Shown piece by piece: positions 15,700 through 55,386 of a stretch of DNA of 58,779 nucleotides. The notes under the pieces were generated by a model, which had not been told where the DNA came from, did no database searches, and saw nothing but the letters and a program-made list of their open reading frames with translations. The stretch's first letter is position 1. Each line of letters starts with the position of its first letter. Origin of the DNA: Solimicrobium silvestre. Lineage in GTDB: Bacteria > Pseudomonadota > Gammaproteobacteria > Burkholderiales > Burkholderiaceae_D. The stretch spans positions 1 through 58,779 of the forward strand of contig NZ_PUGF01000030.1 of NCBI RefSeq assembly GCF_002976435.1, in the 5' to 3' direction. A program made the translations under genes and the position numbers.

Positions 15700-16121
15700 G
15701 AGTTATTTTCCTTAAGAGTTACGCAAATTGCAATATGGCCCTGCTCGTCTGTGAATGCATCGTCCCAACACGAAAATATGGTTACGAAATATCTCGAAGG
15801 ATGTTGAAATCTACATCAAGGTGAACGCGCAGCAAAGCTTATTCAACTTTCTGTTGTATCTATTCCACGACCAAGGCCTGCAAGTCCCGCGCCCGTCCCG
15901 CCCTTGTACCAGAGGCTCATACCTCGGCGACGTCTAGCACCGTAGGCTAGGTGTTATTCGTCGAGTTCAGCACACAAATTAGCTGGAGTTATGTGTGTTG
16001 GCGTACTGATTCAGAAAATTAAAAAGATTATCGTGACGTTGGCATCACACAAGCTGATTCCTAATTAGTCGCTTAGATGATTTGTGGCAAGATTTTATTT
16101 TAAAATTGAAGGAGAACTAAA
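15700..16121. other. Intergenic region, 422 bases, with a hairpin and one dispersed-motif copy
   Basis: No convincing coding sequence is present. A hairpin built from CGACG/CGTCG and TAGCACC/GGTGTTA lies at 15928-15963. A copy of the dispersed palindromic motif lies at 15993-16011, about 110 bases before the next gene. The stretch near 15890-15905 is a short GC-rich run. Confidence 0.5.
15993..16011 (+). promoter_or_regulatory. Dispersed palindromic motif, copy 1
   Basis: GTGTGTTGGCGTACTGATT. This is a degenerate match to the consensus GTKCG-N4-CGNACAGATT, 111 bases upstream of the small gene at 16122. Confidence 0.4.
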
Positions 16122-16334
16122 ATGAATGCAGACAGTGATATCGTCCGTACACATGTTGTCGATGAACGCTCAGATATGGAAACTGAATTAGCTGTAAATC
16201 GCGGTTTAGCAGTTGCTTTATTGGATGGCGTTCGGGAAGGAGTGAAAATAATGCAAGATGAAGGAGTTCCAATAGAAATTTGCTCAAGGGTGCTCAAGAA
16301 TAAAGCGAATCGACGAGCTTCTGACTGGAAATAG
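16122..16334 (+). CDS. Small conserved-looking protein of unknown function
   Basis: The 70-residue soluble protein (MNADSDIVRTHVVDERSDME and onward) is predicted helical, with EGVKIMQDEGVPIEICSRVLKNK. AAGGAGAACTAAA precedes the ATG, a very good Shine-Dalgarno, which supports translation. Its upstream motif copy is shared with stress and carbon genes elsewhere in the window. I do not recognise the family. Confidence 0.6.
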   Translation: MNADSDIVRTHVVDERSDMETELAVNRGLAVALLDGVREGVKIMQDEGVPIEICSRVLKNKANRRASDWK

Positions 16335-16631
16335 TGTAATTGAAATTTAATCCTCAAATTACTTCCGATATTATCATCAGCACAATTCAAAACTTCTTCC
16401 TGAATTTTTGCTAAGGAACAAGGCAGTATCAAAACGCATGCTCGCGCTGGCATGGATTTCTGTCTTATAAAAACACGATCAATACATTTAATCTCAATTT
16501 ACTGTGCGATTTTTACCTATTTTTTAGTCAAATTTTTCAAATAATTCCAATTTAATTAATGAGGGCTAAGGCCTACATAAGGGCAACACACGCCGAATTC
16601 TTACGTGTTGTAAGGAAAGTAAAAGTCAGGA

Positions 16632-19600
16632 TTAATTTAATGCGTCACCAATCGTCATCATTTTTATTTCCACCAAATGCTCCAAAGCGTCGTTATTAAG
16701 ATGAATAACGCAATCAGGTTGATCAATGCCATCCACCGTCACACTTTGTTTTGCAACATCAGAAGCGATTTGCACAACCGTAATACGATATGTCGTATCT
16801 CGATAACGATACTTCAATGTGAATGATGTCCAGTCAGCAGGAATACAGGGCTTGAATGTCAGCGTATTGACCTCTAAATGTAATCCGAGCAAGGATTCGA
16901 TAATCAAGCGATACATCCAACCAGCTGATCCGGTATACCAAGTCCATCCACCCCTTCCGATATGCGGCGACACTGCATAGACATCCGCAGCGAGGACATA
17001 GGGCTCGACCTTGTAAGTTTCAACAGCGTGAGCAGTTTTGGCATGATTGATTGGATTAATCATGTCCATTAATTCCCAAGCACGTTTGTTATCCCCCATT
17101 TTTGCAAATGCCATGATCGTCCACACCGCAGCATGTGTATATTGGCCACCATTTTCACGGACACCTGGCGCGTAACCTTTGATATAACCCGGGTTCAGAT
17201 CCGATGAATCAAAAGGCGGCTCAAGTAATTGAATCAGCCCTGATTCACGTTGAACTAAACGTTGGCTGACTTCATACATCGCCGTTTGAGTTCTGCTTAT
17301 TTCTCCAGCACCGGATAAAACTGCCCAGCTTTGCGATATCGAATCAATCTGACATTCTGCATTGCTAATTGAACCTAACGGCGTGCCGTCATCGAAATAC
17401 GCGCGGCGGTACCAATTCCCGTCCCATGCATTGGCTTCAATTTTTTGTTGCAGTTGCATGGCTTGATCGACACATTGTCCCGCAAACGAGAAATCGCCAT
17501 GTAATTTCGCCACCTCAGTAAACCGCATCAATACGTCGTAGAGGAAAAAGCCGAGCCAAACACTCTCGCCTTTGCCTTCCGCCCCTACCTTGTCCATACC
17601 GTCGTTCCAGTCACAAGAACCAATCAGCGGTAAGCCATGAACGCCAAACCGCAGGGCTCTTAAAATAGCGCGTACGCAATGTTCGTAGAGGGTTCCTGAT
17701 GTAGTCGAGATAGTTGGTAAATCATAATAAGAATCTTCTTCAGCATTCACTGCCCGGCCTTCTAGAAAATGTGCATGTTCATCGAGAATGCCCGTATCTC
17801 CGGTACTTTGTACATAGCGGCAAGTTGCCAGCGGCAGCCAAAGATAGTCGTCAGAACAATGGGTACGTACGCCGCGATCTGTTGGTGGATGCCACCAATG
17901 CAAGACATCACCTTCAACAAACTGGTGAGCAGCAGACAGTAAAAGATGTTCGCGTACCAGATGCGGCTCTGTATGGATCAAGGCCATCACATCCTGCAAT
18001 TGATCACGGAATCCAAATGCGCCACCCGATTGATAAAATCCACTCCGCGCCCACAACCGGCAAGCAATGGTTTGGTACATTAACCATCCATTCGCAAGCA
18101 GGTTCAGGGCAATATCCGGTGTTTCTACCTGAACCGCGCCAAGTGTATTCTGCCAATACGCCTTCACTGCTTCCAAGGCTTTGCGAGCCGCCGTAGCACC
18201 ACGATAACGATACACCAGGCTACTGACATCAGCGCTTCGACGGCCAGCAACGCCCAACATAAAGACAATTTCTCGCTCTTGTCCTGCTGATAGTTCGAAT
18301 GGTACCTGGATTGCTGCACACGGATCCAAACCTGCTCCTACCCGGCCTGTTAAACGGGTACGGCTTAACGCGGCGGGATTGTAAAGCGCGCCATTTCGTC
18401 CAAGAAATTCGGCACGATCACCGCTCACCGTACGGTTCATGGCATCGACATCGAAAAACGCAATCCGATCGGCGAACTCGGTGTTGTACGAATTATGTGC
18501 AAATATCGCACCGCTGATCGGATCCGACTCCGTCACAATATGCATGGCCGATTTTGAGCGCAGGTCGCCAAGTAATAATTCAACATAACCTACGGCGGAT
18601 AATTTGCGTTCCGTTTTCGAGTCATTGCGTATCTTTAGTACAGAATATTTAATTGACGCATCGATAGCGACATAAACCCAAAGTTCAGAATGTATTCCAT
18701 CTTCGGTATGTTCAAAAACACTATAGCCATGCCCATGCCGGCTTACATATGGCCCCTGCCCTCGGCAAGGTAATGGGGTTGGCGACCAAAAATGTCCACT
18801 CTCTTCATCGCGCAGATAAAAGGCTTCGCCGCAGCTATCGGATACCGAATCGTTATTCCAAGGCGTCAATCTGAATTCATGTGCATTCTCGCCCCAGGTG
18901 TAGGCTTGTCCGCTTTCAGATATCACCGAGCCAAACCGCGGATTTGCCAGAATGTTCACCCAAGGTGCAGGTGTTGTATTACCCGTTTCGGTCGTAATGA
19001 TGTATTCCTTACCATCCGGCGAAAAGCCGCCCAAGCCATTAAAAAATTGAAGATTATTTTCTTCGGCTTGAATAGCATTTTGTATGCTAATCGCTCGCGG
19101 ATGTGTTGGATTAAGTTGTGGCATACGCAGCTCCGGAATACTGCGTCGATTCAGTTGCTCAGCGAGTGTGCCTCGACTATCGCAAAGTACGACACGTGCC
19201 ACGGTTTGCAGCAAAATACGATCTTCGCTCGACATCTGGTCTGCTAGCCGCACAAAAATCCCGCCAGGACGATCAATAGAATGCGCTTCAATTCCGGAAG
19301 CGATCATTCCCATTATTTGATCCTGTAAAATTTGTCGATAACCGGCATGATCTTCATTCCAGATCACTAAATCGACAGCCAACCCTTTTAAGCGCCAATA
19401 AGAATGCGCTTGCACCATCTGTCGCACTAAATCAATATTTTCTAAATTTTTAACTTGTAATAACACAATCGGTAAATCGCCGGAAATGGCGTAACTCCAG
19501 AGACCGGATTGGCCCCGGCGATTTTTCAATAATATGCTTGCCTCTGCACGCAATTGATCGTTTGCGTAGATGATAGAACTGGCCAAACGTGCGTAGAGTT

Positions 19601-22600
19601 GGGCATCTGCTTCGGTCGCATTCAGCTGACGTAGCACAACCTGGCTATGCGTCCACGCCAGTTCAAATACCCGATCAGCCAGAAAGCGATCCTGGTATTT
19701 CGCAATTAATTGCAACGCATCTTCACGGGATTCCGCCGCGCCGATCACCATATCAATCACCGCTATTTGCTGTGGGGCGAGATCAATTTGAAAACGAATT
19801 GAGGCAATTGGATCAAGTACCGAACCTTGACTTCCAGAGAGCTTGCCGCAAACACGCATCGCCGCCGGTGCTACTGTTGAGTTACCGCGCCCAAGAAATT
19901 TAGCCCGATCTGTTTCAAAAGAAATTTGTTTTATTTCTTCACCATGCGCCACAATCAAATTCAACATCCACGGCATTTTTTCATCACCGGAACGCGGTCT
20001 ACGGCTGGACAAAATGGCATTTTGCGATTCCAAAATTTCAGTTTGCACGAACAAGTTGCTGAAGGCCGGATGTGCGTTGTCGGCGGCCGCTGGGGCAAGC
20101 ACAATTTCCGAATAACTGGTCACTTCGATTGTTCTGCGTACCCGTGAACGATTCGTAATATGAGTGCGGCGCATTTCAATATCATCTTCCGGCGACACGA
20201 CTATTTCCGTATGCATTTCAATATCATGATCGCGACGGCGATATTCAGCCCTTCCTTCCGAAAAAATCACCTCGTAAAAATCGGGTTTAACTAACGTCGG
20301 TTGATACGTCGTGGACCAAAATTCCCCGGATTCGCAATCACGGACATAACAAAATGAACCCCAATTATCGCTAGTGCCATCTTCACGCCAGCGGGTCAAC
20401 GCAAGATCTTTCCAATGGCTGTTATTACCACCCGCATTCGTCACCATTAAGTTATAACGGCCGTTGGACAAAAGCTGCACTTCAGGAACCCGTGTTTCAT
20501 GTCGATTAATAATACGCATCGGCATGCTTTGCTCCTCGCTATTGGTGCGTATATCAGCAAGTTCAATCGTATTGGCATAAAACGCCGATGCTTTAGGAAT
20601 TTTTTCTTGCAATAGCAACATCGTTGCCTGAAATAATGGATCAGATTCAAAGCGTTTTTGCATCGGCCGATCACGCAGGTAATATGCCAGGGACAACAAC
20701 CCCATACCTTGATGATGTGCCATGAACGATTGAATTAATGCATAGGATTGGCCGCGCTGCAAACGCGACGTAGTGTAATCAATGGCTTCGTAAAGGCCGT
20801 ATTTCCCTTCAAATCCTTCTTTAGCAAGTCGCTGTAAATTGCTACATGCTTGTTCTGGGTCGACCATAATGGCCAACATACTTGCGTAGGGGGCAATCAC
20901 TAAATCGTCACCCAAGCCACGTTTCAAACCCAGCCCTGGCACACCGAAGGCGCGATATTGGTAGTTCAGACTGGCGTCGAAAGTATGGAAGCCTGATTCA
21001 GAGACTCCCCACGGCACATCCCGTTGGGCACCATATTCAATTTGGCGTTGAACGACTGAATGATATGTTTGATCAAGCAAGGTATTTTCAAACGTCGGCA
21101 TGATCAATAATGGCATCAAATATTCAAACATGGAGCCACTCCACGACATGAGAATCGGATCACCGCCCGCTACCGTGAGTTGTCTTCCCAGGGCGAACCA
21201 GCTTTCCTGCGGCAATTGGCCTTGTGCAATCATCACAAAAGTACATAACCGGGCTTCTGAAGCCAGTAAGTCGTAGTAACTGCTATCGCAGCGTTGCTCT
21301 GCAACGGCATAGCCTATCGTCATCAGGTGCGTTGCTTTGTCATAGAGAAAACTGCAATCCATTTGCGCGAATTCAGAAGCTTGGAGTGCCAGACTTTCTA
21401 TTTCCTTAATCCGCGTGGCGGCTCGAAGGCTTCCTAAAGCCAGCAGCTCACCGATACCCCGAATTTCTTCATTGCTATTTGCTTCATTGTGATTTTGCTT
21501 TGGAATTATATTTCCGCTCAGCCAAAGCGCCTCTAACCCAGCTAATTCACGTAATGTCGGAATAAAATCAATTTTGGAAAACATGATATTTTTCTCAAGC
21601 GAATTGATCCAGCTACTCCAAGGTGCAAGAAACAATAATTCATCGTACATAGCACGACATTGCCGTAATAATGCCGAAACCCACCAAGTCAACTGATCAT
21701 CTTCTTTACCGCCGAATACGGCGACCAAATCTTCTGCGCCAATAGTCAGTTTCTGCAGCATTACCTGACAATTACTCAATGTCATCATGGACGCATCGGA
21801 AGTAAAATCTAACAGCGTCTTAAATTGCATCAATTCAATTTGTGAACTTGCGCCTGATAGACTTTGAAAAATCTTGAACGTATCTTCTATGCCACCGATC
21901 AGGCGTTGATTGACGATAGGTTGATCAATCAACATCAGCAAGCCGGGCCGTAATGTTAAAAGATGACCGGCTAAGTTCCCGCTGTCCACGCTAGAAATGT
22001 ACATAGGCAACAGCGGTTTCAGGCTTTGGGTATCGTACCAATTATAAAAATGCCCGCGATAGCGCTCCATCCTACGCATGCTGAGTAAGGTATTACTTGA
22101 GCGTTCGAGTAATTGACCGACTGAAATGTAAGCAAAGTCGTAGGCTGTCAGATTAGCGAGTAAAGCTAGCCCGATATTCGTTGGCGAGGTGCGATGTGCT
22201 ACAACGGCAACCGGTCGCTCCTGGATGTTATCCGGCGGTAGCCAGTTATCTTCAGGCCCGACCAATATTTCGTAATAAGACCAAATTTTACGTGCAAGGC
22301 GATACAAGAAAACCGTTTGATCGTCTTGCAATTGCGCTTCTGAACGTGCATGCGGCTCGCTGATATACCACGCAATGGCCGGTGCTATTAACCATGCAAG
22401 TAAGAATCCCGCGGCGGCGAATAATGACGCGGGGTGAATTAAGAGCAAGACAATAATCAGGAAAATTGACAACGTGGACGTGAACCACATGATGCGAAAT
22501 GAGCTGGTCAAGCTAAGGTCGGAATTCGAATTGCTTTGATTTGATGGAGTCCATTCGAGCAAATGTCGACGACTGATCAGCAGGCGCCAAAGCGTCCGTA

Positions 22601-25370
22601 AGATGGCATCTAAACTGAAAAACGCGTCATAAGGCAAAAATATTAACGTGAGCGCGGCATGGAAAAGATGCTGCTTAGTCGATCGTAGAGACGCACTCAA
22701 ATGTTGTAGCACGAGGATGTCGTTTGACTTTCGCAGCAAATCTAGCAAAGAAGTCGTTAACGGTGGAATCAACAAAATGCTTAAAACGATGCCGCTCCAA
22801 AACCACGGCGACGGTGACATTATCCATCCGCACACTAACAATAAGACCAGGCTGGTTGAAACCAAGCTACGGCGTAAATTATCAAATAACTTCCACCGGG
22901 ATAATGCTGAAAGTGGGTTGTGTTTACTCAGCTCTTCCGCATTGACTTTCGGGGCGTGAGGCAACAACCAGCCAATTAATTGCCAATCACCGCGTATCCA
23001 TCGATGCCGACGTTGTACATCGTTGCTATACCGTTTGGGGTAATCTTCAATGACATGTACATCCGTCAGTAAACCAGAACGAGCATAGCAGCCCTCTAAT
23101 AAATCATGGCTCAAAATCTGGTTATCTGGGCAGCACCCGGCCAGCGATTGTTCGAACGCATCAACGTTATATATACCTTTACCAATAAATGAACCTTCGT
23201 CAAAAATATCTTGGTAAACATCCGATGCAGCTTGGGTATAGGGATCAATGCCAGAATCACCGCTACATAGGCGTTGGTAAAGGGATGCATTAGCAGATGG
23301 CAAACTAGCCGAAACCCGCGGTTGTAAAATACCGTAACCCGCAGCGACACGTTGCTGACCGGGATTGAAGCGCGCCTGATTGAGAGGATGTGCGATAGTC
23401 GCAATCAACTGCCGCGCTGAATCGCGTGGTAACTGGGTGTCCGTGTCCAAGGTGATGATGTACTTAACCGAGGATAAATTATCTGAATTACCCACCACAC
23501 AGAAAAATGGATTGAACCCGGTGTTGCGTAAAAAAGCATTCAAATCGGCTAATTTTCCGCGTTTTCGTTCACGACCCATCCAAATTTTTTCTTGCGCATT
23601 CCAGCTACGTGCACGATGCAAAAGTAAAAATCTCCCCTCGCCGCCACTCGTATACTTTTCATTCAACTGCTCTATTTTGTGCCCTAATTGCAGCAGAAGC
23701 GAAGCATCCTCCTCTGTCGTTTCCGTTGCCGCATCAAGAAAATCCGTCAAAAGACAATAATAAATATGTTCATCCTGATTCGCGAGAAACCTGACTTCCA
23801 ACGCTTCACAAAGACTATTGATATTTTCCACGGAAATAAGCATCGTCGGCACCACAACCAAGGTCTTGCACTCAGCAGTAATGCCTTTAGAAAAATCCAA
23901 ACGTGGAAGTTGGTGCGGTGTGACGATGATAGTGACAAACCAGTTAACCAAACCAATTGCTAACTGACTTACGCCTAATAGAGAAAGTATGGCGACTACG
24001 ACTAATTGCCAATCCTGCATCGCTTCGAGATGGGCTTTTACAAGAATACCGATGATGATCAATGACGACAATAAGGAAATAGCACCTAAATAAGTGAGCA
24101 ATGGTGATTTGCTACATGATCGACATAGCAGCCCATAGAGCGAAAACTTCATTGGGACAGCAAGCTCCAAGAGCGGCACCCCATCACCGATTAAAAAATA
24201 ACCGATATGTGCGGTGACGGCATCCTTACCATACGTCATTGCTGCTTGCTCAGCCAGAAACAGCGCTTGCTCTGCAATTTGAATTTCGCTTAACTCACTA
24301 CGCCGGCTAATGCTTTCAATGACATGCCGATAGCGATCGCGGGTAGCGAAATCCATTAAGCGGTATACGTCATTCGGATCACGCAAAAGAACTTGTTCAA
24401 CCACACTCATTGTTTCAACAAATTCACGCCAATCCATTTTCCCTAATAAGCGCAAACTACCGATGCTATTACTGATCGTCACCTGATCAGCGGCCATTTG
24501 TTGGCCCTCTATTTGAATTAACTGTTCGACTGTCAGGCCAATTTCAGAAAGGCGCGGCGCAATCCAGGTGAGCGGTAACGTTAATGCCGGGCCCTGACCT
24601 TGCAGGCGGCGCGCCAATTCAGCGACAAATGAACCAACCATCGGTGGATCTGAACGCGCCATATCGGCAACTAATAAAATAAGACTACTAGGGTCTTTCT
24701 CAACGGTTTCCACCATTTGATCGGCCCATGTATCCGCTAAATTGCAATTAATTCTATTGGCAACCAGACGTGCAGCCACCCGCCTGAGATTTTCAATCAG
24801 GGCCAGCCGCAACATAATTGGAATCGCCCATAATTCGCCTAAGGTCAGCGGAGTGATCTGTTGATAGGATGCGACGAAACGGGATAAACCTTCCGGATCA
24901 ATCCGACCATCACCATGCGATATGGTTTGTAACGCGATGTCGTAGACACGTGGATGTGAATCTGAAGTACCACTGATGAGGCGCGGTAATTCTTTGCTAT
25001 AACCTTTCGGCAAATGCCTTTTCGCAGTACGAATTTGCTCTTCAATCAGGTAAAAATTATCTAGCAACCATTCTGCAGCCGGGCTAATTTGACGGCCCTC
25101 TTTCAGTGCCACGGTCAAAACATTACAGGCTTCGCTGAGAACGATTTCATTATCTGCTAAGCGAGCTAACAACAAATCTTTCGATTTTCCTTTGCTGACT
25201 TTATGTAGCCTGGCCAATACCTTGCCGTGCTCTTCCATCTGGACAATCCCAAACAGCTCGGCGCGCAAAGGTAATTCCCCCTCGTCAGATATTCCTTGCC
25301 AATCGCTATGACGTGTAATGCCAACCAGCCTCAGCAGATTGGAGAGAGAATTTTTATCGATAATCTTCAA
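16632..25370 (-). CDS. Cyclic beta-1,2-glucan synthase-like giant membrane protein (NdvB/ChvB type)
   Basis: The protein has 2912 residues, about the size of NdvB/ChvB/Cgs (near 2800). An N-terminal helical region of about 430 residues is followed by two membrane segments (about 435-480). A glycosyltransferase region comes next, with IITLDTDTQLP near 643 and RRHRWIRGDWQL near 790, then four or so membrane segments between about 830 and 1000. A glycoamylase-like region follows (FDASLNYQYRAFGVPGLGLK near 1475; FMAHHQGMGLLSLAYY near 1550), then two beta-sandwich domains. The C-terminal GH94 phosphorylase-type domain shows GSCDWNDGMDKVG near 2590 and GGWTWYTGSAGWMYR near 2812. The family uses UDP-glucose to build and cyclise periplasmic beta-1,2-glucan. 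The start is TTG with AGGAG six bases before it. The gene diverges from the zwf series. Confidence 0.88.
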   Translation of the reverse strand: MKIIDKNSLSNLLRLVGITRHSDWQGISDEGELPLRAELFGIVQMEEHGKVLARLHKVSKGKSKDLLLARLADNEIVLSEACNVLTVALKEGRQISPAAEWLLDNFYLIEEQIRTAKRHLPKGYSKELPRLISGTSDSHPRVYDIALQTISHGDGRIDPEGLSRFVASYQQITPLTLGELWAIPIMLRLALIENLRRVAARLVANRINCNLADTWADQMVETVEKDPSSLILLVADMARSDPPMVGSFVAELARRLQGQGPALTLPLTWIAPRLSEIGLTVEQLIQIEGQQMAADQVTISNSIGSLRLLGKMDWREFVETMSVVEQVLLRDPNDVYRLMDFATRDRYRHVIESISRRSELSEIQIAEQALFLAEQAAMTYGKDAVTAHIGYFLIGDGVPLLELAVPMKFSLYGLLCRSCSKSPLLTYLGAISLLSSLIIIGILVKAHLEAMQDWQLVVVAILSLLGVSQLAIGLVNWFVTIIVTPHQLPRLDFSKGITAECKTLVVVPTMLISVENINSLCEALEVRFLANQDEHIYYCLLTDFLDAATETTEEDASLLLQLGHKIEQLNEKYTSGGEGRFLLLHRARSWNAQEKIWMGRERKRGKLADLNAFLRNTGFNPFFCVVGNSDNLSSVKYIITLDTDTQLPRDSARQLIATIAHPLNQARFNPGQQRVAAGYGILQPRVSASLPSANASLYQRLCSGDSGIDPYTQAASDVYQDIFDEGSFIGKGIYNVDAFEQSLAGCCPDNQILSHDLLEGCYARSGLLTDVHVIEDYPKRYSNDVQRRHRWIRGDWQLIGWLLPHAPKVNAEELSKHNPLSALSRWKLFDNLRRSLVSTSLVLLLVCGWIMSPSPWFWSGIVLSILLIPPLTTSLLDLLRKSNDILVLQHLSASLRSTKQHLFHAALTLIFLPYDAFFSLDAILRTLWRLLISRRHLLEWTPSNQSNSNSDLSLTSSFRIMWFTSTLSIFLIIVLLLIHPASLFAAAGFLLAWLIAPAIAWYISEPHARSEAQLQDDQTVFLYRLARKIWSYYEILVGPEDNWLPPDNIQERPVAVVAHRTSPTNIGLALLANLTAYDFAYISVGQLLERSSNTLLSMRRMERYRGHFYNWYDTQSLKPLLPMYISSVDSGNLAGHLLTLRPGLLMLIDQPIVNQRLIGGIEDTFKIFQSLSGASSQIELMQFKTLLDFTSDASMMTLSNCQVMLQKLTIGAEDLVAVFGGKEDDQLTWWVSALLRQCRAMYDELLFLAPWSSWINSLEKNIMFSKIDFIPTLRELAGLEALWLSGNIIPKQNHNEANSNEEIRGIGELLALGSLRAATRIKEIESLALQASEFAQMDCSFLYDKATHLMTIGYAVAEQRCDSSYYDLLASEARLCTFVMIAQGQLPQESWFALGRQLTVAGGDPILMSWSGSMFEYLMPLLIMPTFENTLLDQTYHSVVQRQIEYGAQRDVPWGVSESGFHTFDASLNYQYRAFGVPGLGLKRGLGDDLVIAPYASMLAIMVDPEQACSNLQRLAKEGFEGKYGLYEAIDYTTSRLQRGQSYALIQSFMAHHQGMGLLSLAYYLRDRPMQKRFESDPLFQATMLLLQEKIPKASAFYANTIELADIRTNSEEQSMPMRIINRHETRVPEVQLLSNGRYNLMVTNAGGNNSHWKDLALTRWREDGTSDNWGSFCYVRDCESGEFWSTTYQPTLVKPDFYEVIFSEGRAEYRRRDHDIEMHTEIVVSPEDDIEMRRTHITNRSRVRRTIEVTSYSEIVLAPAAADNAHPAFSNLFVQTEILESQNAILSSRRPRSGDEKMPWMLNLIVAHGEEIKQISFETDRAKFLGRGNSTVAPAAMRVCGKLSGSQGSVLDPIASIRFQIDLAPQQIAVIDMVIGAAESREDALQLIAKYQDRFLADRVFELAWTHSQVVLRQLNATEADAQLYARLASSIIYANDQLRAEASILLKNRRGQSGLWSYAISGDLPIVLLQVKNLENIDLVRQMVQAHSYWRLKGLAVDLVIWNEDHAGYRQILQDQIMGMIASGIEAHSIDRPGGIFVRLADQMSSEDRILLQTVARVVLCDSRGTLAEQLNRRSIPELRMPQLNPTHPRAISIQNAIQAEENNLQFFNGLGGFSPDGKEYIITTETGNTTPAPWVNILANPRFGSVISESGQAYTWGENAHEFRLTPWNNDSVSDSCGEAFYLRDEESGHFWSPTPLPCRGQGPYVSRHGHGYSVFEHTEDGIHSELWVYVAIDASIKYSVLKIRNDSKTERKLSAVGYVELLLGDLRSKSAMHIVTESDPISGAIFAHNSYNTEFADRIAFFDVDAMNRTVSGDRAEFLGRNGALYNPAALSRTRLTGRVGAGLDPCAAIQVPFELSAGQEREIVFMLGVAGRRSADVSSLVYRYRGATAARKALEAVKAYWQNTLGAVQVETPDIALNLLANGWLMYQTIACRLWARSGFYQSGGAFGFRDQLQDVMALIHTEPHLVREHLLLSAAHQFVEGDVLHWWHPPTDRGVRTHCSDDYLWLPLATCRYVQSTGDTGILDEHAHFLEGRAVNAEEDSYYDLPTISTTSGTLYEHCVRAILRALRFGVHGLPLIGSCDWNDGMDKVGAEGKGESVWLGFFLYDVLMRFTEVAKLHGDFSFAGQCVDQAMQLQQKIEANAWDGNWYRRAYFDDGTPLGSISNAECQIDSISQSWAVLSGAGEISRTQTAMYEVSQRLVQRESGLIQLLEPPFDSSDLNPGYIKGYAPGVRENGGQYTHAAVWTIMAFAKMGDNKRAWELMDMINPINHAKTAHAVETYKVEPYVLAADVYAVSPHIGRGGWTWYTGSAGWMYRLIIESLLGLHLEVNTLTFKPCIPADWTSFTLKYRYRDTTYRITVVQIASDVAKQSVTVDGIDQPDCVIHLNNDALEHLVEIKMMTIGDALN

Positions 25371-25437
25371 TGAGTGCTCCTCTTTCTTTTAAGCCTGAAA
25401 TCTCAAACAAGTCTAATACGTCAATAACAACGACTCC

Positions 25438-25455
25438 GTTCGTTACCGAACATAT
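25438..25455 (+). promoter_or_regulatory. Dispersed palindromic motif, copy 2
   Basis: GTTCGTTACCGAACATAT. The GTTCG/CGAAC arms are a perfect palindrome. It lies 68 bases upstream of the glucan synthase start. Confidence 0.55.
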
Positions 25456-25540: not shown

Positions 25541-25558
25541 GTATGTGCGATAGCGCAC
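25541..25558 (-). promoter_or_regulatory. Dispersed palindromic motif, copy 3
   Basis: Minus-strand reading GTGCGCTATCGCACATAC with perfect GTGCG/CGCAC arms, in the divergent region between the glucan synthase and zwf. Confidence 0.55.
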
Positions 25559-25644
25559 GGAGTAACTGGATGTAGATAGGCAAACTGCTATAAACGGATG
25601 CAAGGCAATTTCTAAAGCAATGCTCTAAAAATCAATTTTGACAA

Positions 25645-25879: not shown

Positions 25880-27277
25880 ATGAGTAAGACCAACACAGGT
25901 AAAGGGCATGCGGATGCATTAGTCATTTTCGGCGTGACCGGCGATTTGGCACGTAAGATGATTTTCCCGGCACTCTATGCAATGGTTAAACGCGGTGTAC
26001 TCACTGTACCGGTAATTGGCGTTGCCTCATCGCCGTGGACGATAAGCAAGTTACATAAGCAAGTCATCGATAGCCTTAAACAGGCAGGGAAAATTGATGA
26101 TCAACCTGCGTTGAACCGACTTCTTGAATTATTAAGTTATGTAAGCGGCGATTATAACGATCCGAATACTTTCCAAGCGCTAAAACAAATATTGGGGAAA
26201 TCACGCCGCCCGGCACATTATCTCGCCATCCCCCCTGCCCTTTTTTCCACCGTAATTAAAGGGCTTGCTGCTTCAGGTTTAGCGCATGGCGCACGGGTTA
26301 TTGTTGAAAAACCTTTCGGACGTGATCTGGCTTCAGCACGCGAACTTAACCGGATTGCGCTATCCGCTTTTCCTGAAGCAGCCATTTTCCGCATTGATCA
26401 CTACCTAGGCAAAGAAGCGATTATGAATATTCTTTATTTTCGCTTTGCCAATTCCTTCCTGGAGCCAATCTGGAACCGCAATTATGTGAAAAGCGTACAG
26501 ATAACGCTGGGGGAATCATTCGGCGTAAAAGGCCGCGGTGCTTTTTATGAAAGCGCGGGTTGCTTGCGTGACGTCGTTCAAAATCATTTATTCCAAATCG
26601 TTGCGTTGCTGGCGATGGAGCCACCCGCGTTTCAAGGTTTTGGTGCAGTTCAAAATGAAAAAGCCAAAGTGTTTCAGGCAATGCGGCCCTTGCGTCCAGA
26701 CGATATAGTCCGCGGCCAATATTCCGGCTATAAAAAAGAAGCCGGTGTGGCAAAGAACTCTAAGGTAGAGACATTTTGTGCAGCGCGCTTGCACATTGAT
26801 TCGTGGCGTTGGCAAGGTGTGCCTTGGTATTTGCGTGCGGGTAAATATCTTGCAACAACCGCAGCTGAAGTCGTGATCGAACTAAAACCACCGCCGCAAA
26901 TGCTATTTGACGACGCAATTTCTGCACACGGTCGATCCAATTATCTACGGTTTCGTCTTTCGCCCAATTCCGCTATCGCATTGGCTGCCCGCGTCAAACG
27001 GCCCGGTAAAGAGTTTGTTGGCGAACAGCAGGAATTATTTCTGCTGGATGAACAACACGGAGCAGAAACCCCTTACGAACGCTTACTGAGTGACGCCATG
27101 ACGGGTGACGCTGCCCTATTCACACGTGAAGATGCCGTGGAAGCAGCATGGTCGGTCGTTGAAGGGGTTCTTGATACGCATAGTCCTTTGCATACGTATC
27201 AACCAGGTAGCTGGGGGCCAAAGCAAGCCAATACACTCATTGCTGCCGATGGTCACTGGTATGACCCAATTTTGTAG
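25880..27277 (+). CDS. zwf: Glucose-6-phosphate 1-dehydrogenase
   Basis: The 465-residue protein has the nucleotide-binding motif [10 protein letters not shown] (residues 18-27), EKPFGRDL, and the active-site signature [10 protein letters not shown] (about 169-178). Later motifs [19 protein letters not shown] and WYLRAGKYL are also conserved. It oxidises glucose-6-phosphate to 6-phosphogluconolactone with NAD(P)+, the first step of the oxidative pentose phosphate pathway. Length is slightly shorter than the usual 480-490. It leads a long plus-strand series of pentose phosphate genes. GAGG lies before the ATG. Confidence 0.95.
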
Positions 27278-27288
27278 AAAGTGACACC

Positions 27289-28005
27289 ATGAGCGCACCA
27301 GAAAAAATAGTATTTCTACTCGACGTTGACAATACATTACTGGATGGGGACCGCATCATATCCGATATCGACAGTCATTTTTACAAAGTATTCGGCGACG
27401 AAGGACGCCTTCGCTACTGGGCAATCGCCGAGTCTTTACGCCTGGAATTAGGCTATGTCGACTACCTTGGTGCCGTACAGCGATTCCGATCAGAGTCAAA
27501 AGAAGATCCCCGCATACTGATGTTGTCTTCATTCTTCCTTGATTACCCATTTGCTGAGCGCTTATATCCACGCGCTCTGGATTTACTCAATCATTTGCTC
27601 CGATGGGGCAATACCGTCATTGTCTCGGACGGCGATATGATTTTTCAACCGCGTAAAATTCAACGATCCGGGTTATGGGATGCGGTTGAAGGCAGAGTCT
27701 TAATCTATCAACACAAAGAAAAAATGCTCGAAGATATCGAGCAACGATTTCCATCACATCACTACGTCATGGTGGATGACAAGTTACAAATTTTGACTGC
27801 GATGAAAAAAATTTGGCACAATCGCTTGACCACAATTTTTCCACGCCAAGGGCATTACGCATTGGATCCAGCAAATATCGCTGCATATCCTGCGGCCGAC
27901 ATGTCTATCGAATACATCGCTGATTTAATCAATACCGATGTTCCTGCATTGCTCCATCACACGCCATTATTTACGAGGAATAATCATGACGGATCAACAT
28001 TCTGA
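27289..28005 (+). CDS. HAD-superfamily hydrolase
   Basis: The 238-residue protein has the HAD motif [11 protein letters not shown] (residues 11-20), motif II VIVSDGD, a lysine region (HKEKM) and motif [14 protein letters not shown] helical cap lies between motifs I and II. HAD proteins are mostly phosphatases on small phosphorylated metabolites. It is sandwiched between zwf (11 bases away) and phosphoketolase (20-base overlap), so a sugar-phosphate or 6-phosphogluconate-related phosphatase role is possible, but the substrate cannot be read off. Confidence 0.85.
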
Positions 28006-30400
28006 ATCAACAGCACCACCACGTGATGCACTTTCCCCCCTTCAATTAAAAAAGATGAATGCTTATTGGCGAGCGGCCAATTATTTATCGGTTGGTCAAA
28101 TCTATTTACTGGATAACCCGCTGCTCAAAAAACCATTAACCTTAGAGCACATCAAACCACGATTATTAGGACACTGGGGAACGACTCCAGGCTTGAATTT
28201 TATTTATGTGCATTTAAATCGCATTATTAAACTGCATGATTTAAACGTCATTAATGTCACCGGCCCTGGTCATGGTGGGCCAGGGCTGGTCGCCAATACG
28301 TATCTTGAAGGCAGTTATAGCGAGCTTTATCCCAACATTCTTCAAAATGAATCAGGGTTAAAAAAATTGTTTACGCAATTTTCTTTTCCCGGAGGAATCC
28401 CCAGTCACGTCGCCCCCGGAACACCGGGCTCAATCAATGAAGGTGGAGAACTTGGCTATTCCTTATCACATGCTTATGGCGCCGCGTTTGATAATCCCGA
28501 TTTATTAGTTGCCTGTGTCGTCGGTGACGGTGAAGCAGAGACTGGAGCAATGGCGACGAGTTGGCATTCGAATAAATTCCTAAACCCAGTACGTGATGGT
28601 GCTGTGCTACCGATTCTGCATTTAAATGGCTACAAGATAGCCGGCCCGACAGTATTAGCGCGCATTAGTCATGAGGAATTGGAGCAACTATTTCGCGGCT
28701 ATGGTTATACGCCCTACTTTGTTGAAGGGGATGATCCTGAAAAAATGCATCAGTTAATGGCGGCTACTCTTGATATTGTGATAGCCGAAATTCAGCGCAT
28801 ACAAGACGATGCGCGTTTAAATGGATTTAGTGTACGACCGCGTTGGCCGATGATTATTTTGAACTCACCAAAAGGATGGACTGGGCCAAAAATAGTCGAC
28901 GGCAAACCAGTCGAAGGAACGTTTCGGGCGCATCAAGTCCCGGTTGCAGAACTAAGAAATAACCCTGAACACGTTGCCATACTCGAACAATGGCTGAAGA
29001 GTTACCACGCCGAAGAACTCTTCGACAAAAATGGCCGACTGTTACCCGAGTTAGCAGAATTAGCACCGCGCGGGAAACGCCGCATGGGTGCCAATCCCCA
29101 TTCCAATGGCGGTTTGCTGCTACGTGATTTGATATTGCCCGATTTTCGCGAATACGCAATTAAGGTTCCAAAGCCCGGCGTGGTGGATGCGGAAGCGACG
29201 CGCATACAAGGGCAATTTTTGCGTGATGTGATGAAACTGAATACAGTAGAAAATAATTTTAGACTTTTCAGCCCGGATGAAACAGCATCAAATCGCTGGA
29301 ACGCGGTATTTGACGTAACAGACCGCTGTTCAACGGCAAGAATTATCGCCATCGATGACCATGTCGCCAACGATGGCCGGGTAATGGAAATGTTGAGCGA
29401 ACATCAATGCGAAGGTTGGCTCGAAGGGTATTTGCTCACAGGGAGGCACGGCTTTTTTTCCTGCTATGAGGCATTCATTCATATTGTTGATTCCATGTTC
29501 AATCAACATGCCAAGTGGTTAAAGATGGCACATCAAATTCCATGGCGTCGTCCAATTGCATCACTAAACTACCTGCTCTCTTCACACGTTTGGCGACAGG
29601 ATCACAATGGTTTCAGTCATCAGGATCCCGGGTTCATCGACCATGTTGTGAACAAAAAATCTGAAGTTGTTCGTGTCTATCTACCACCGGATGCCAATAC
29701 GCTATTGTCGGTCACTGATCATTGCTTACGCAGTCGCGATTACATCAATGTGATTATTGCCGGCAAACAGCCTGAGCCGCAATGGCTTGATATGGCGTCC
29801 GCAGTGAAGCATTGCGCAAATGGAATCGGCATATGGGATTGGGCCAGCAACGATGAAGGCATTGAGCCGGATGTGGTGATGGCCAGTTGCGGTGATGTGC
29901 CGACGCTCGAATCGCTGGCTGCTGTAAAAATTCTTAGAGAGCATTTTCCTGATCTGAAAATTCGCTTTATTAATGTCGTTGATTTAATGGCGTTGCAGCC
30001 GCAGATTGAGCATCCGCATGGGTTAAGCGATCAAGATTTTGATGTTTTATTCACCAAAGATAAGCCAATTATTTTTGCATTCCATGGCTACCCCACATTA
30101 ATTCATCGCCTTACCTATCGACGTACCAACCATCATCAATTGCATGTGCGTGGCTACAAAGAAAACGGTACCACAACCACACCATTTGACATGGTTGTAC
30201 TAAACGATCTTGATCGCTTCCATTTAGCCATTGACGTCATTGACCGTGTACCTAGTTTAGGAGCCAAAGCGGCACATGCTAAGCAATTTTTACGTGGAAA
30301 ACTACTGGATCACAAAGCATATATTGAACAGTACGGGGAAGACATGCCGGAAATCCAGAATTGGAAATGGGATAGCGGAAAATCAGGGATCAATTTGTAA
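27986..30400 (+). CDS. xfp: Xylulose-5-phosphate/fructose-6-phosphate phosphoketolase
   Basis: The protein has 804 residues from the ATG at 27986, which has GAGGAA upstream; the frame opens at 27938. It shows the N-terminal signature [40 protein letters not shown], the thiamine diphosphate motif [20 protein letters not shown] (about 180) and, near the C-terminus, [17 protein letters not shown]. The enzyme splits xylulose-5-phosphate (and in many cases fructose-6-phosphate) with phosphate to acetyl-phosphate plus a sugar phosphate. No acetate kinase or phosphotransacetylase gene is in the window. It overlaps the HAD gene, so translation is probably coupled. Confidence 0.95.
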
Positions 30401-30428
30401 TTGCATCGTCAATAAAATGGGGGGATCT

Positions 30429-30447
30429 GTTGGGTAACGTACAGATT
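30429..30447 (+). promoter_or_regulatory. Dispersed palindromic motif, copy 4
   Basis: GTTGGGTAACGTACAGATT, in the gap between phosphoketolase and the hibernation-factor-like gene. It is preceded by ATCT, so ATCTGT and ACAGAT extend the symmetry. Confidence 0.5.
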
Positions 30448-30944: not shown

Positions 30945-31000
30945 AAATGCGAAATGATAAGGCGCCTGCAATTATTCAATTGACTAATTAAAGCGACTAA

Positions 31001-31019
31001 GTGGGATAACGAACAGATT
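31001..31019 (+). promoter_or_regulatory. Dispersed palindromic motif, copy 5
   Basis: GTGGGATAACGAACAGATT, 75-93 bases upstream of the transketolase start. It is close to copy 4 in its right half. Confidence 0.5.
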
Positions 31020-38079: not shown

Positions 38080-38138
38080 TCGCTTAACAAAATCCGTAAA
38101 TCGACTTTTCTTTGCAATTAAATATTAACTTAGGCGCC

Positions 38139-39437: not shown

Positions 39438-39461
39438 TAGCTAAAAAAATTTAATCCGTAA

Positions 39462-39480
39462 GTGCGATGCCGCACAGATT
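39462..39480 (+). promoter_or_regulatory. Dispersed palindromic motif, copy 6
   Basis: GTGCGATGCCGCACAGATT, with perfect GTGCG/CGCAC arms. It lies 25 bases after the glucanase-like gene and about 190 before the next start. Confidence 0.55.
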
Positions 39481-46613: not shown

Positions 46614-47450
46614 TTAATCGTACAATTCAACGTCTTTATTTGATTCCTCATGCTCCCAGTAGCCAGCACGCCCGTAATGTTGGTGAATATCAACCTCCTG
46701 CTCTCGCCCCAACTCCACTGCTATGTCATATGGCGCAGCGTCTTTTACCTCCTGCCGGGTCAGATTGACGGTGACCGTTCTATCGAGCCATCGAACTTCT
46801 TCAACCCATAATGGTGCAATTAACACTTGATGACCCAGCCACCAATTGCTAGTGTCTACAATGAAGTAGCGAATGGCCCAGGTCTCATCGTCGACAAGCA
46901 TGCCACTTACATGGCCGATATCTCCATCGCTCGCATGGATGTGATAGCCGATTACTGCTTTACAGCTACGCAGGTGACTACCGGAATTTTGATGTCGCTC
47001 CACTTCTTCAGGTCGACTGCCATTTATTACAGCTTCTTGGGGCAACGTATTTGTAGACGTATTGTCGCCAAGGTAACCTGGCATCATCATGTCTGGGTAA
47101 ATCCCCGCGCCCCAAAGTCCGGCACCGCCCCAATAGATTGGATAACCGTAATATCCTAGATAATGGTTTTCGTGTTGCCGCGATACCGGCTTTTCGGTAT
47201 CAATATCCGGACTATTTTTAACTTGCTCCTTCGTGATTAAAACTGGAAGTGTTTTTTCAGCCCAATTTGGTTTCCCAATAGCTATTGGTGAAATCAATAC
47301 CTTACGGCTCAAAAGCCAACTACCCGTATCAACAATAAAATAGCGGATTGCCCAGCCCTCATCATCGAAATAGAAATCCTTCACATGACCAATATTGCCG
47401 TCCGTGGCATGAATTGCATATTCATTTAGATCAATCAAACTGCGTAACAT
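46614..47450 (-). CDS. Double PRC-barrel domain protein
   Basis: The 278-residue protein has two PRC-barrel copies. Residues about 5-80 have YAIHATDGNIGHVKDFYFDDEGWAIRYFIVDTGSWLLSRKVLISP. Residues about 165-250 have YHIHASDGDIGHVSGMLVDDETWAIRYFIVDTSNWWLGHQVLIAP. A Gly/Tyr-rich linker joins them. PRC-barrel proteins of this type are common in stress and photosynthetic contexts but mostly lack an assigned activity. AAAGGAG lies eight bases before the ATG. A dispersed-motif copy lies about 107 bases upstream. Confidence 0.88.
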   Translation of the reverse strand: MLRSLIDLNEYAIHATDGNIGHVKDFYFDDEGWAIRYFIVDTGSWLLSRKVLISPIAIGKPNWAEKTLPVLITKEQVKNSPDIDTEKPVSRQHENHYLGYYGYPIYWGGAGLWGAGIYPDMMMPGYLGDNTSTNTLPQEAVINGSRPEEVERHQNSGSHLRSCKAVIGYHIHASDGDIGHVSGMLVDDETWAIRYFIVDTSNWWLGHQVLIAPLWVEEVRWLDRTVTVNLTRQEVKDAAPYDIAVELGREQEVDIHQHYGRAGYWEHEESNKDVELYD

Positions 47451-47556
47451 GAGTTTTCTCCTTTAAGAACACCGAACGGAATGCAATCGGTGAATTGCAT
47501 TTACACTGGCTTACTTGGATGCGCTTGCACAGTAAGCTTATATTCGAGGTTAGTCC

Positions 47557-47575
47557 GTGCGCTATCGCGCAGATA
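47557..47575 (-). promoter_or_regulatory. Dispersed palindromic motif, copy 7
   Basis: GTGCGCTATCGCGCAGATA (plus-strand reading), between the PRC-barrel gene and the ABM-type gene and about 107 bases upstream of the PRC-barrel start. It differs by one base from copy 3 in its core. Confidence 0.5.
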
Positions 47576-49341: not shown

Positions 49342-49731
49342 CAGAAAAAAAACACACTTGGCAGCGTGTCGTAAATAGCTATCGTGCTAATCGCCTCACT
49401 CAAGAACCACGCGGGCTTGAGATCCTTCGTCGTCACAGCACGCTCTTTTCCTATCGAGGCGATAAGCCGTCTATACATTGCCGTGACGTTAGATTTTTTC
49501 ATCCTTGATGCCTTTGCTTGGTCTTTACATTAAAAACTGTGTGTTTTCTCCAGCCTATGCTCGCCATTTTTACCCGGATGTCGGAGCGATTTATTGATTT
49601 CATTGCATTGGATCATCCAGCAAGATCAGGTTGCTCGATATTGAAAGATGCGTCTGTGCGGCATCGAACATTACTCCAAACGACAGCCTTAATAACTAAG
49701 GTAAATGTTGATTTTGAATTTACGAAAATAA
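49342..49731. other. 390-base intergenic region with a motif copy
   Basis: It lies between the hydrolase start and the diiron-protein end, both leftward. It contains a short hairpin (CTCAAG/CTTGAG, 49399-49421) and a dispersed-motif copy at 49656-49673. A 78-residue frame at 49518-49754 has no ribosome site and overlaps the neighbouring gene, so I do not call it. Confidence 0.5.
49656..49673 (+). promoter_or_regulatory. Dispersed palindromic motif, copy 8
   Basis: GTGCGGCATCGAACATTA. The left half is canonical and the right half weaker. It lies just downstream of the diiron protein gene and far upstream of the hydrolase. Confidence 0.4.
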
Positions 49732-50565: not shown

Positions 50566-50634
50566 TCATTCTCCATGTTCGTTATTCAGCAATTCGACAT
50601 AGAGCACTGTATAGCCCAATCATTTAATGATTCT

Positions 50635-50652
50635 GTGCGCTATCACACATTA
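50635..50652 (+). promoter_or_regulatory. Dispersed palindromic motif, copy 9
   Basis: GTGCGCTATCACACATTA, about 70 bases upstream of the diiron-protein start. Confidence 0.5.
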
Positions 50653-50741
50653 CGTTGTCCCAACGAGTTTACCGGGCTTCACTAACCATTAAATTTTCAT
50701 TCCAATATTCCTTAAAATCTCCTCACCGATTTTTTTGATAT

Positions 50742-50760
50742 GCGCGCTGCCGTACAGACT
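50742..50760 (+). promoter_or_regulatory. Dispersed palindromic motif, copy 10
   Basis: GCGCGCTGCCGTACAGACT, about 107 bases upstream of the efflux operon. The right half GTACAGACT is close to copies 4 and 5. Confidence 0.45.
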
Positions 50761-53770: not shown

Positions 53771-55312
53771 ATGGGCATGATAATAAAAACATTCGCCGGT
53801 ATCGGCTTAGTATTTCTGACGGGATGTGCTGTCAAAGGCCCTAATTTTTCACCGCCTGAATCACATTTATCCACAACATGGAATGTCGATCAAAGCGTTG
53901 ATACGCGCGCTGTAGTTACAACAAATGTCGCAACAAATCCGCTTGCCGATCCAGACCCTAACTGGTGGCACAGTTTTAACGATACCTTGTTGGATTCACT
54001 GGAACAACGCGCGGTTGCCGGGAATCTTGATCTCCAGGTCGCATTACTTCGCATTGCCGCATCACGTTCGCAAGAGCAAATCGCTCGTGCTCAAGGTTTG
54101 CCAAATTTAAAAGCCGCAGCCAGTTATGATCGTGAACAATTGGGCCTTGAGGGTATTCTAAAATCAGCCGGGCCACTACCGCCCTCTTTACAAAACAATC
54201 CAGCGACTGGCCCCATCGAATCACAATTGACTGATCCGATAAACCTATACACGGTGGCTCTTGATGCTTCATGGGAGTTGGATCTATTCGGTAAAGTAAC
54301 ACGGTCGGTGGAAGCTGCCGCTGCACAATCGCACGCTAATGAAGAGGCGCGTAATGGGGCTTTGGTTGCTCTGCAAGCCGAAGTTGCACAAACCTATGCC
54401 CAATTACGTGCAGCTCAAGCGTTACGAGCGTTAACGATAAAGGAGCTTAGTGATGAACAGCAAATTTTGGACTTAACCAAAGACCTGCAAAAATCCGGTT
54501 TAGGCAATCAGTCAGACGTTGAATCACTAGTCAGCCAGGTCGCGCAAAATCAAGCGCTTTTACCACAATATGAAATACAGATTACCCAGACCTGTAATGC
54601 ATTGGCCGTGTTAATTGGCGTAAATCCCGGGACGTTAAACGCGGAATTAACGATTGATGGAAAAATAATTGCACTACCGGATGTGATCGCCATTGGTGTA
54701 CCTGCCAGCCTGGCACGTCGTCGACCAGACATTCGCGAAGCGGAAGAAAATCTGCATGCGGCAACAGCAGAAACCGGCGTAGCAATCGCCTCCCTTTATC
54801 CAGATTTATCGTTGGGTGCACAATATGGATTACGCAACACGACCACCAAGTATCTGTTCAATTGGGCCAGCCGATTTTACAGCGTTGGTCCGTCCATTTC
54901 ACTACCGATTTTTCAAGGTGGCTCCTTAACCGCCAATGTGCATTTAGCGAAAGCAGAACAAGCGGCTGCGGCGATTATGTATCGCAAAACTGTTCTCAAT
55001 GCATTGCAAGAAGTAGAAAACGCATTGATCAGCTTCCATCAAGACCAGTTACGTGCTCAGTCACTAAAAACCGCAACACAGGCAAATAACCGTGCGCTGG
55101 CACTCAACAGCAACGCTTATCAACACGGCCTGATCAATTTCATCACGGTGTTAAATAGTGAGCGACAGGCAGTTCAGACACAAACACAATGGACTACGGC
55201 ACAGGTTCAGTTGAGCACGGATTTGATCACGCTTTACAAAGCACTTGGCGGTGGTTGGGAAATAAACCCACCCATCATTGCGGCAGACATTGAAAGCAAC
55301 GGATTGAAATAA
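53771..55312 (+). CDS. NodT-family outer-membrane efflux channel lipoprotein
   Basis: The frame opens at 53594 but the real start is the ATG at 53771 (513 residues), one base after emrB. The signal ends in the lipobox LTGC, so the protein is a lipoprotein. It contains NWWHSFNDTLLDSLEQRAVAGNLDLQVALLRIAASRSQ and a second repeat starting ARRRPDIREAEENLHAATAETGVAIASLYPDLSLG, the duplicated OEP domains of TolC/NodT trimers. Together with EmrAB it completes a tripartite pump. Confidence 0.92.
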   Translation: MGMIIKTFAGIGLVFLTGCAVKGPNFSPPESHLSTTWNVDQSVDTRAVVTTNVATNPLADPDPNWWHSFNDTLLDSLEQRAVAGNLDLQVALLRIAASRSQEQIARAQGLPNLKAAASYDREQLGLEGILKSAGPLPPSLQNNPATGPIESQLTDPINLYTVALDASWELDLFGKVTRSVEAAAAQSHANEEARNGALVALQAEVAQTYAQLRAAQALRALTIKELSDEQQILDLTKDLQKSGLGNQSDVESLVSQVAQNQALLPQYEIQITQTCNALAVLIGVNPGTLNAELTIDGKIIALPDVIAIGVPASLARRRPDIREAEENLHAATAETGVAIASLYPDLSLGAQYGLRNTTTKYLFNWASRFYSVGPSISLPIFQGGSLTANVHLAKAEQAAAAIMYRKTVLNALQEVENALISFHQDQLRAQSLKTATQANNRALALNSNAYQHGLINFITVLNSERQAVQTQTQWTTAQVQLSTDLITLYKALGGGWEINPPIIAADIESNGLK

Positions 55313-55368
55313 AGAGCATGGTACGGCCAGAAAAATTACTATTCGCAGCTTTTAGTAACAGCGCCACT

Positions 55369-55386
55369 GTTCGTTAGCGTACATAC
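55369..55386 (+). promoter_or_regulatory. Dispersed palindromic motif, copy 11
   Basis: GTTCGTTAGCGTACATAC, 125-142 bases upstream of the catalase start. It differs from copy 2 (upstream of the glucan synthase) by only three bases. Confidence 0.5.

Follow-up and report, generated by a model that had tools for sequence, protein, structure and literature searches.

The 58,779-bp contig of Solimicrobium silvestre analyzed here (NZ_PUGF01000030.1, contig C29 of the genome; hereafter, the window) contains eleven copies of a palindromic operator, TMTGTDCGNYRNCGHACAKA, most of them 64–190 bp upstream of gene starts. We consider it highly likely that this operator serves a regulon run by a class II activator of the Crp/Fnr superfamily, which is encoded on another contig (C14) and would also activate its own gene. 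According to the proposed mechanism, a dimer of the C14 protein would bind the palindrome centered at −41.5, where the promoter-proximal arm partly coincides with a degraded −35 element (G at −33, A at −32). In the manner of class II Crp/Fnr activators, the bound dimer would recruit RNA polymerase of the sigma-70 type to a −10 box lying 32 bp farther downstream. The activated set would comprise PRC-barrel, BON, CsbD, catalase, glucan synthase, and pentose phosphate genes. A first-pass annotation of this DNA had ascribed the copies to one regulator that it left unnamed. The results support this reading, and the C14 protein, whose own promoter contains sites in many genomes, is a strong candidate for the regulator.

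All eleven copies reported in that annotation were found in the window, and, as it had stated, each lies outside the genes called by the hexamer model used for the DNA scanned. Its consensus, GTKCG-N4-CGNAC, is exact in five copies (25438, 25545, 39462, 49656, and 55369) but inexact in the other six, and the copy it placed at 25541 is real but has its core at 25545. The site is also longer than described earlier, forming a 20–22 bp palindrome. Scanning the window for the exact pattern gave 10 strand matches in 6 places, compared to 1.01 expected from 100 shuffles (standard deviation 1.33, maximum 5). The sixth place, absent from the earlier list, is at position 48093 within the gene at 47618-48292 and scores <12 bits with a symmetric, 22-position matrix that we built from the intergenic exact-pattern sites (38 of 53) in S. 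silvestre DNA, including the window. The eleven copies score 19.2–24.7 bits with this matrix. Beyond these places, no site >14 bits was found in the window, which has one 12.6-bit coding match at 2686, and scans of the window with Rfam (gathering threshold) and for tRNAs gave no matches.

The operator lies at a preferred distance from a putative −10 box. Spacing was measured from the center of the palindrome to the center of a TATAAT-like hexamer, and comparisons across site sets used sites >16 bits in both orientations. One clear downstream gene was present at 31 of 62 S. silvestre sites, among which the hexamer stood at exactly 32 bp in 14, compared to about 0.43 per position elsewhere. Across 64 sites of this genome, 35 matches fell at exactly 32 bp (best offset outside 31–33: 7). 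Three sets that were not part of matrix building gave 18 matches at 32 bp among 46 sites in zwf loci of named genomes (best outside 31–33: 5), 6 among 37 sites in a first set of regulator loci (best outside 31–33: 3; offset 31 has 4), and 9 among 24 sites in a second set (best outside 31–33: 2). A −10 hexamer at 32 bp was present on 30 of 88 gene-facing sides versus 3 of 36 other sides (p = 0.003), and when nine offsets were compared on the side of each window site that faces a gene, 32 bp scored best at nine sites and 33 bp at two. Given that the −10 hexamer occupies −12 to −7, the palindrome is centered at −41.5, where class II activators such as Crp and Fnr have their sites. The predicted promoters conform to this class, with a putative activator site at about −41.5 that overlaps the −35 position.

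The two arms of the palindrome are not equivalent. When orientation was assigned by the −10 box alone (sites boxed on both or neither side were omitted), the promoter-proximal arm had G at −33 in 31 of 33 S. silvestre sites, 16 of 19 sites in the named zwf loci, and 15 of 20 in the regulator loci, whereas the distal arm had G in 6, 4, and 1, respectively. With a 17-bp spacer, the proximal-arm G corresponds to the G of TTGACA and is followed by its A (−32), suggesting that operator and −35 element are fused. The tail of AGATT or ATA noted in the first-pass annotation therefore reflects a real asymmetry, but one that is better described as a promoter-proximal arm overlapping the −35 element, because this arm carries the G (and A) of the −35 box.

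The candidate regulator was found by reading the genes around the sites. It is an atypical Crp/Fnr protein of 268 aa encoded outside the window, on the minus strand of contig C14 (L048:14884-15690), with the recognition helix LGVRREGVTEAAGKL; its gene is preceded, at 91 bp, by a site of 26.4 bits. The Crp-like geometry of the operator's 16-bp core, TGTNCG-N4-CGNACA, had also pointed to a Crp/Fnr protein. The C-terminal winged helix of the C14 protein matches HTH_Crp_2 (PF13545) at 54.6 bits (cut-off 27), and the N-terminal nucleotide-binding domain (PF00027) reaches 23.1 bits, below the cut-off of 27.5. Oxygen sensors of the FNR/Anr type hold a 4Fe-4S cluster in an N-terminal cysteine cluster; this feature was not found in the candidate, which has no cysteine in its first 100 residues. 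Two other proteins of the genome exceed the HTH_Crp_2 cut-off. A paralogue on contig C13 (44% identity, RRES recognition helix, no upstream site) and an FNR-like protein with a cysteine cluster (C7:126333) were both set aside as the regulator. Among related sequences, an upstream site was present at 26 of 44 genes with an RREG helix versus 1 of 8 with an RRES helix (p = 0.022), which is only suggestive of a link between recognition-helix residue and upstream site. A search for the regulator in phages gave no match.

Regulator genes often occur in adjacent pairs that combine an RREG-type with an RRVG-type member, and in two loci (L179 and L181) both paired genes have an upstream site >14 bits. 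Such pairs hint at a two-member circuit.

Tests in other genomes used the matrix derived from S. silvestre alone. In 30 regulator loci (two from S. silvestre and the rest a class-wide sample, some overlapping, so that a few sites are counted twice), 47 sites >14 bits were found, compared to a mean of 0.76 and a maximum of 8 for 100 permuted matrices. Likewise, 29 loci of relatives contained 31 such sites (permuted mean 0.38, maximum 3). Nine of ten orthologues of the regulator at 74–86% identity (a set that omits one 88% fragment at a contig end) have a site centered 54–196 bp upstream; for the tenth (L233), no site was found in the 320 bp scanned. Counting every distinct member of the family with a length of 200 aa or more, 37 of 67 had an upstream site >14 bits. 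Among 139 other genomes of the class, matches to the 16-bp pattern averaged 3.67 in those with the regulator (n = 18) and 0.93 in those without it (n = 121; p = 7.8e-8, which is a guide only, because the genomes are non-independent and differ in GC content), whereas the reversed pattern gave 0.89 versus 0.63 (p = 0.15).

Sites were also found around zwf in other bacteria. The best 80 of 305 zwf loci, all from named genomes, contained 56 sites >14 bits. Of the 48 sites >16 bits, nine precede zwf by 86–566 bp (in five records of Nitrotoga, two of Methylobacter, one of Gallionellaceae, and one of Betaproteobacteria), one is upstream of tkt, and one is upstream of tal. The other 37 are not close to any of the 18 window genes used for comparison, and no site >16 bits falls inside stretches aligned to these genes. 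Methylobacter luteus and a Nitrosospira are among the bacteria whose zwf loci carry sites.

Several results weigh against the proposed mechanism. Only 5 of the 11 window sites have a gene-facing −10 hexamer scoring >4 at offset 32–33, and one of 30 permuted matrices (range 0–33) gave 33 sites in the zwf loci compared to the 56 observed. The fit between regulator and sites is loose: 8 of the 18 regulator-bearing genomes of the class have <3 matches, and 12 of the 121 regulator-less genomes have at least 3, although in 16 loci from 7 of these 12 genomes only four matches score 14.5–16.8 bits and the rest score lower. No site >14 bits was found within about 320 bp upstream of 18 of the 44 distinct RREG-type regulator genes. 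Within the genus, one genome (G002) has seven full-pattern matches (0 in the control), including one of 26.4 bits (L267:1498), and no C14-type regulator was found in it at E ≤ 1e-10, whereas another (G004) has the regulator, preceded by a 19.1-bit site, and only two full-pattern matches, neither >12 bits. Two further genomes match the pattern and lack the regulator (G005, 8 versus 1 in the control; G008, 3 versus 0); none of the six loci examined in these two has a site >14 bits.

The strong sites of the regulator-less genus-mate are what one would expect if the same operator and regulon were bound by another protein and the Crp/Fnr gene were merely one target, and a promoter site is equally expected for a mere target gene. 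However, sites recur at the regulator gene across many families and at several paralogues, site counts are higher in regulator-bearing genomes, and a two-fold symmetric 16-bp core at −41.5 suits a Crp/Fnr protein. Moreover, of the two other HTH_Crp_2 proteins of S. silvestre, one lacks an upstream site and the other has the cysteine cluster. We therefore regard a different binding protein as unlikely. It is quite improbable, too, that the protein is a repressor, with the palindrome over the −35 element blocking polymerase until stress relieves it. The overlap with the −35 position would suit such a block, but repressor sites tolerate many positions, whereas a single preferred 32-bp spacing and an arm that keeps only the G and A of the −35 box are what an activator would need, as far as a pattern can tell.

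A dispersed repeat family (REP/MITE-like, i.e., resembling repetitive extragenic palindromes or miniature inverted-repeat transposable elements) that chances to be intergenic would also explain numerous palindromic copies across the genome. The first-pass annotation had named an even spread of the motif in intergenic DNA as the sign of such a family, and its regulon idea gained support when the spread proved to be uneven. Our main control, chosen by rule as the interval 20001-40000 from all 20 of the largest contigs, contained 3 sites >14 bits in 400,000 bp, two of them a pair on contig C16 that was already known, compared to 11 in the window. In addition, 19 of the 54 strand matches to the 16-base pattern in the whole genome (5.24 Mb) fall on contigs C22 and C29 (133.5 kb). 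We also scanned 902,596 bp of S. silvestre DNA, consisting of the window, stretches fetched for pattern matches, and 17 further stretches. Sites >14 bits were intergenic in 62 cases versus 7 in coding sequence, and at a cut of 12 bits there were 66 intergenic sites versus 0–5 for 12 permuted matrices. The 17 further stretches (340,000 bp) contained no intergenic site and one coding site of 15.7 bits, the zero being partly by construction, because they were chosen outside known pattern matches. Conservation stops at the 22-bp site, with no common or extended unit in the flanks of 38 aligned copies, and the preferred spacing to the −10 box and the sites before zwf in other families likewise speak against a repeat. 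We therefore rejected this explanation, to which we give practically no credence.

Matches driven by chance, GC content, or clustered regularly interspaced short palindromic repeats (CRISPR) are just as negligible an explanation: one genome (G036) owes its pattern excess to a CRISPR-like array, and 15 of 16 matches examined in regulator-less genomes lie under open frames of at least 179 codons, but the eleven window copies are all intergenic, single or paired, at 19–25 bits, and the excess over the shuffled expectation remains with composition-matched controls. The G036 array (G036:C1:473954-477929; loci L258, L264, and L269) has copies at multiples of 60 bp, its repeat includes TGTTCGCTGCCGCACAGGC, and it resembles type I-F. 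Because it mimics the operator, it inflates pattern counts, and G036 was dismissed as a regulator-less, site-rich genome.

The operator sites and the genes around them in the window are as follows (distances are from site to gene start).

15989..16010, plus strand: operator site, 20.3 bits; −10 TATCGT at 16029-16034; 112 bp to the 70-aa gene
16122..16334, plus strand: 70-aa gene, no family found in scans
16632..25370, minus strand: cyclic beta-glucan synthase-like protein (NdvB-type), 2912 aa, GH94 and glucoamylase domains
25434..25455, minus strand: operator site, 22.9 bits; −10 TAGACT at 25410-25415; 64 bp to the glucan synthase gene
25541..25562, no strand assigned: operator site, 24.7 bits, between the glucan synthase gene and zwf; 171 bp to the glucan synthase gene
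25880..27277, plus strand: zwf, glucose-6-phosphate dehydrogenase; start 318–425 bp from sites
27986..30400, plus strand: phosphoketolase (XFP), family matched using the earlier start 27938
30425..30446, plus strand: operator site, 21.6 bits; weak −10 TAACTT at offset 32; 136 bp to the HPF-like gene
30582..30944, plus strand: HPF/YfiA-like ribosome hibernation protein (S30AE), above the Pfam cut-off and below the NCBIfam cut-off
30997..31018, plus strand: operator site, 19.2 bits; −10 TATGCT at 31037-31042; 76 bp to tkt
31094..39437, plus strand: gene run of transketolase, 6-phosphogluconate dehydrogenase, transaldolase, DUF2090, phosphoglucomutase, and a glucoamylase-domain protein
39458..39479, plus strand: operator site, 23.3 bits; weak −10 CATACT at offset 32; 190 bp to the gene at 39669
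39669-40064: 131-aa gene, no family found in scans
46614..47450, minus strand: PRC-barrel protein
47553..47574, minus strand: operator site, 21.0 bits; weak −10 TACTGT at offset 32; 103 bp to the PRC-barrel gene
49652..49673, minus strand: operator site, 22.6 bits; nearest correctly oriented start >300 bp away
49732-50565: 277-aa gene, called a "diiron" protein in the first-pass annotation
50631..50652, minus strand: operator site, 22.7 bits; −10 TACAGT at offset 33; 66 bp to the 277-aa gene
50738..50759, plus strand: operator site, 21.1 bits; weak −10 TAGCCT at offset 32
55365..55386, plus strand: operator site, 23.6 bits; −10 TATCGT at 55405-55410; 125 bp to katE
55511..57622, plus strand: large-subunit catalase, KatE type

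The glucan synthase gene is thus the target of one or two sites; the second, at 25541..25562, is flanked by two weak −10 candidates, CAAACT at 32 bp on the plus strand and TAGCTT at 33 bp on the minus strand. The site at 50738..50759 faces a HlyD/EmrA-MFS-OEP gene run at 50867, 108 bp from the emrA-like start, and no credible −10 box was found on the gene-facing side of the site at 49652..49673. A distance of 70–190 bases, as proposed earlier, describes most sites, except for the one at 49652 and those before zwf, which is a doubtful direct target in the window at 318–425 bp. Family scans agreed with the earlier names for the HPF-like, PRC-barrel, transketolase, glucose-6-phosphate dehydrogenase, HlyD/EmrA-like, and catalase genes, and gave no family above cut-off for the gene at 49732-50565, leaving its "diiron" label unsupported.

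Across the genome, including the window, genes starting within about 200 bp of a site were taken to be putative targets and were assigned with Pfam from selected neighbors. They bear out the kinds of genes (carbon storage and stress) proposed for the regulon. They encode PRC-barrel, BON, catalase, Ysc84-like, DnaJ, SpoIIAA-like, Clp protease, and LTXXQ proteins, together with CsbD, which is second in its gene run. Also among them are genes for transketolase, phosphoglucose isomerase, the glucan synthase of 2912 aa, an S30AE protein, and an EmrA-like protein, as well as for an acyl-CoA dehydrogenase, a TPP enzyme, an AhpC/2Fe-2S protein, CheB-CheR-PAS, and two GGDEF/EAL proteins (85–199 bp downstream of sites). 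Ferritin-like and DUF883 genes are second genes behind site-linked starts, and a Fe/Mn superoxide dismutase gene, with its start 346 bp from the nearest site, is a doubtful target. Judged by this gene content, the regulon would be a general stress and reserve-carbon gene set. A gene run at L046:5629-9297, which begins 180 bp after a site of 24.2 bits, contains a KaiC-like protein (recognized by eye) and a 141-aa gene without a Pfam match.

Relatives of the regulator occur in 333 plasmid records, 15 of them at 60–80% identity. Regulator neighborhoods on plasmids of Burkholderia, Paraburkholderia, and Acidovorax contain glucan synthase, transketolase, PRC-barrel, BON, or CsbD genes. In a B. multivorans plasmid, the regulator is near transketolase, PRC-barrel, CsbD, and glucan synthase-like genes, and in an Acidovorax plasmid it adjoins genes of the BON and glucan synthase-like kinds, and sites there score 23.9 and 26.2 bits. 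Sites in the Burkholderia stretches were weak. A Methylomagnum plasmid copy had no site >14 bits in 18.8 kb; five other plasmid stretches together had 15 (permuted mean 0.6, maximum 6 for all six). Burkholderia arboris/cenocepacia records contain weak, GC-shifted sites >11 bits, six in L298 and two in L297 (permuted mean 1.2, maximum 6 for both together). Two regulator copies are present in L294 (B. multivorans) and three in L298 (B. arboris), adjoining glucan synthase-like, transketolase, and PRC-barrel genes. Because plasmids carry the regulator near target-type genes, the stress program could travel with its own activator.

Compared to known systems, the closest parallels are the class II promoters of E. 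coli CRP and FNR, which share the HTH_Crp_2 winged helix and a center at −41.5 with a −10 box downstream. The CRP site is two-fold symmetric, and its TGTGA-N6-TCACA resembles the TGT...ACA of the 16-bp core described here. Unlike in CRP and FNR, the half-site is TGTNCG, the gene set concerns stress and carbon, and the nucleotide domain is below the Pfam cut-off; the recognition helix reads RREGVTE versus RETVGR in CRP. Of the relatives with solved structures, the cyanobacterial nitrogen regulator NtcA is one of the closest in sequence (2xgx, E 7.5e-4, ranked second of 19); it also provides the best NCBIfam model, and its GTA-N8-TAC site has the same 14-bp GT...AC span. Unlike NtcA, the C14 protein would have other targets, and it falls far short of the equivalog cut-off (25.2 versus 244.95 bits). 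General stress responses directed by SigS and EcfG have comparable targets (katE, CsbD, BON, and PRC-barrel) and work via alternative sigma factors, unlike the putative activator site at −41.5 on a sigma-70-like −10 box found here.

Two systems of Burkholderia cenocepacia can be likened to the regulon by description rather than by sequence. BerA (Bcam1349) is a Crp/Fnr activator of polysaccharide genes that responds to cyclic di-GMP (c-di-GMP), and its expression depends on RpoN (PMC3584217, PMC5552954). Term searches of these two papers gave no operator motif. As a ligand of the C14 protein, c-di-GMP is a guess, made because GGDEF/EAL genes have sites here and because BerA, another Crp/Fnr protein, binds it. 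Clp likewise belongs to the Crp/Fnr proteins that respond to c-di-GMP. The low-oxygen-activated locus lxa, in which stress and metabolic genes are clustered, among them one for a phospholipid-binding protein, resembles the regulon in this respect, and BCAM0049, an Anr relative (43%), is a potential oxygen-sensing regulator (PMC6127331, PMC9104464, PMC3759415). The passages on lxa in these papers give no motif.

While the protein superfamily and the promoter class are known, the operator, the regulon of this subfamily, and the composite −35 element are apparently undescribed; titles and abstract beginnings in the open-licence literature gave no description of operator or regulon, which is weak evidence of absence because "CRP/FNR", with its slash, is unsearchable. 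There is perhaps an even chance that many beta- and gammaproteobacteria share a partly mobile regulon of this kind for general stress and reserve carbon, controlled not by an alternative sigma factor but by a Crp/Fnr subfamily whose particular operator joins TGTNCG half-sites to the −35 element. It would amount to a widespread stress switch of environmental bacteria. To our knowledge, the control of CsbD, BON, and PRC-barrel "stress" genes in environmental beta- and gammaproteobacteria is poorly known. With the operator defined, a candidate regulator named, and the promoter geometry described precisely, the control of such genes becomes testable, and the matrix can list targets in any genome. 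The regulon would also give functional context to the many proteins whose sole annotation is "Crp/Fnr family transcriptional regulator".

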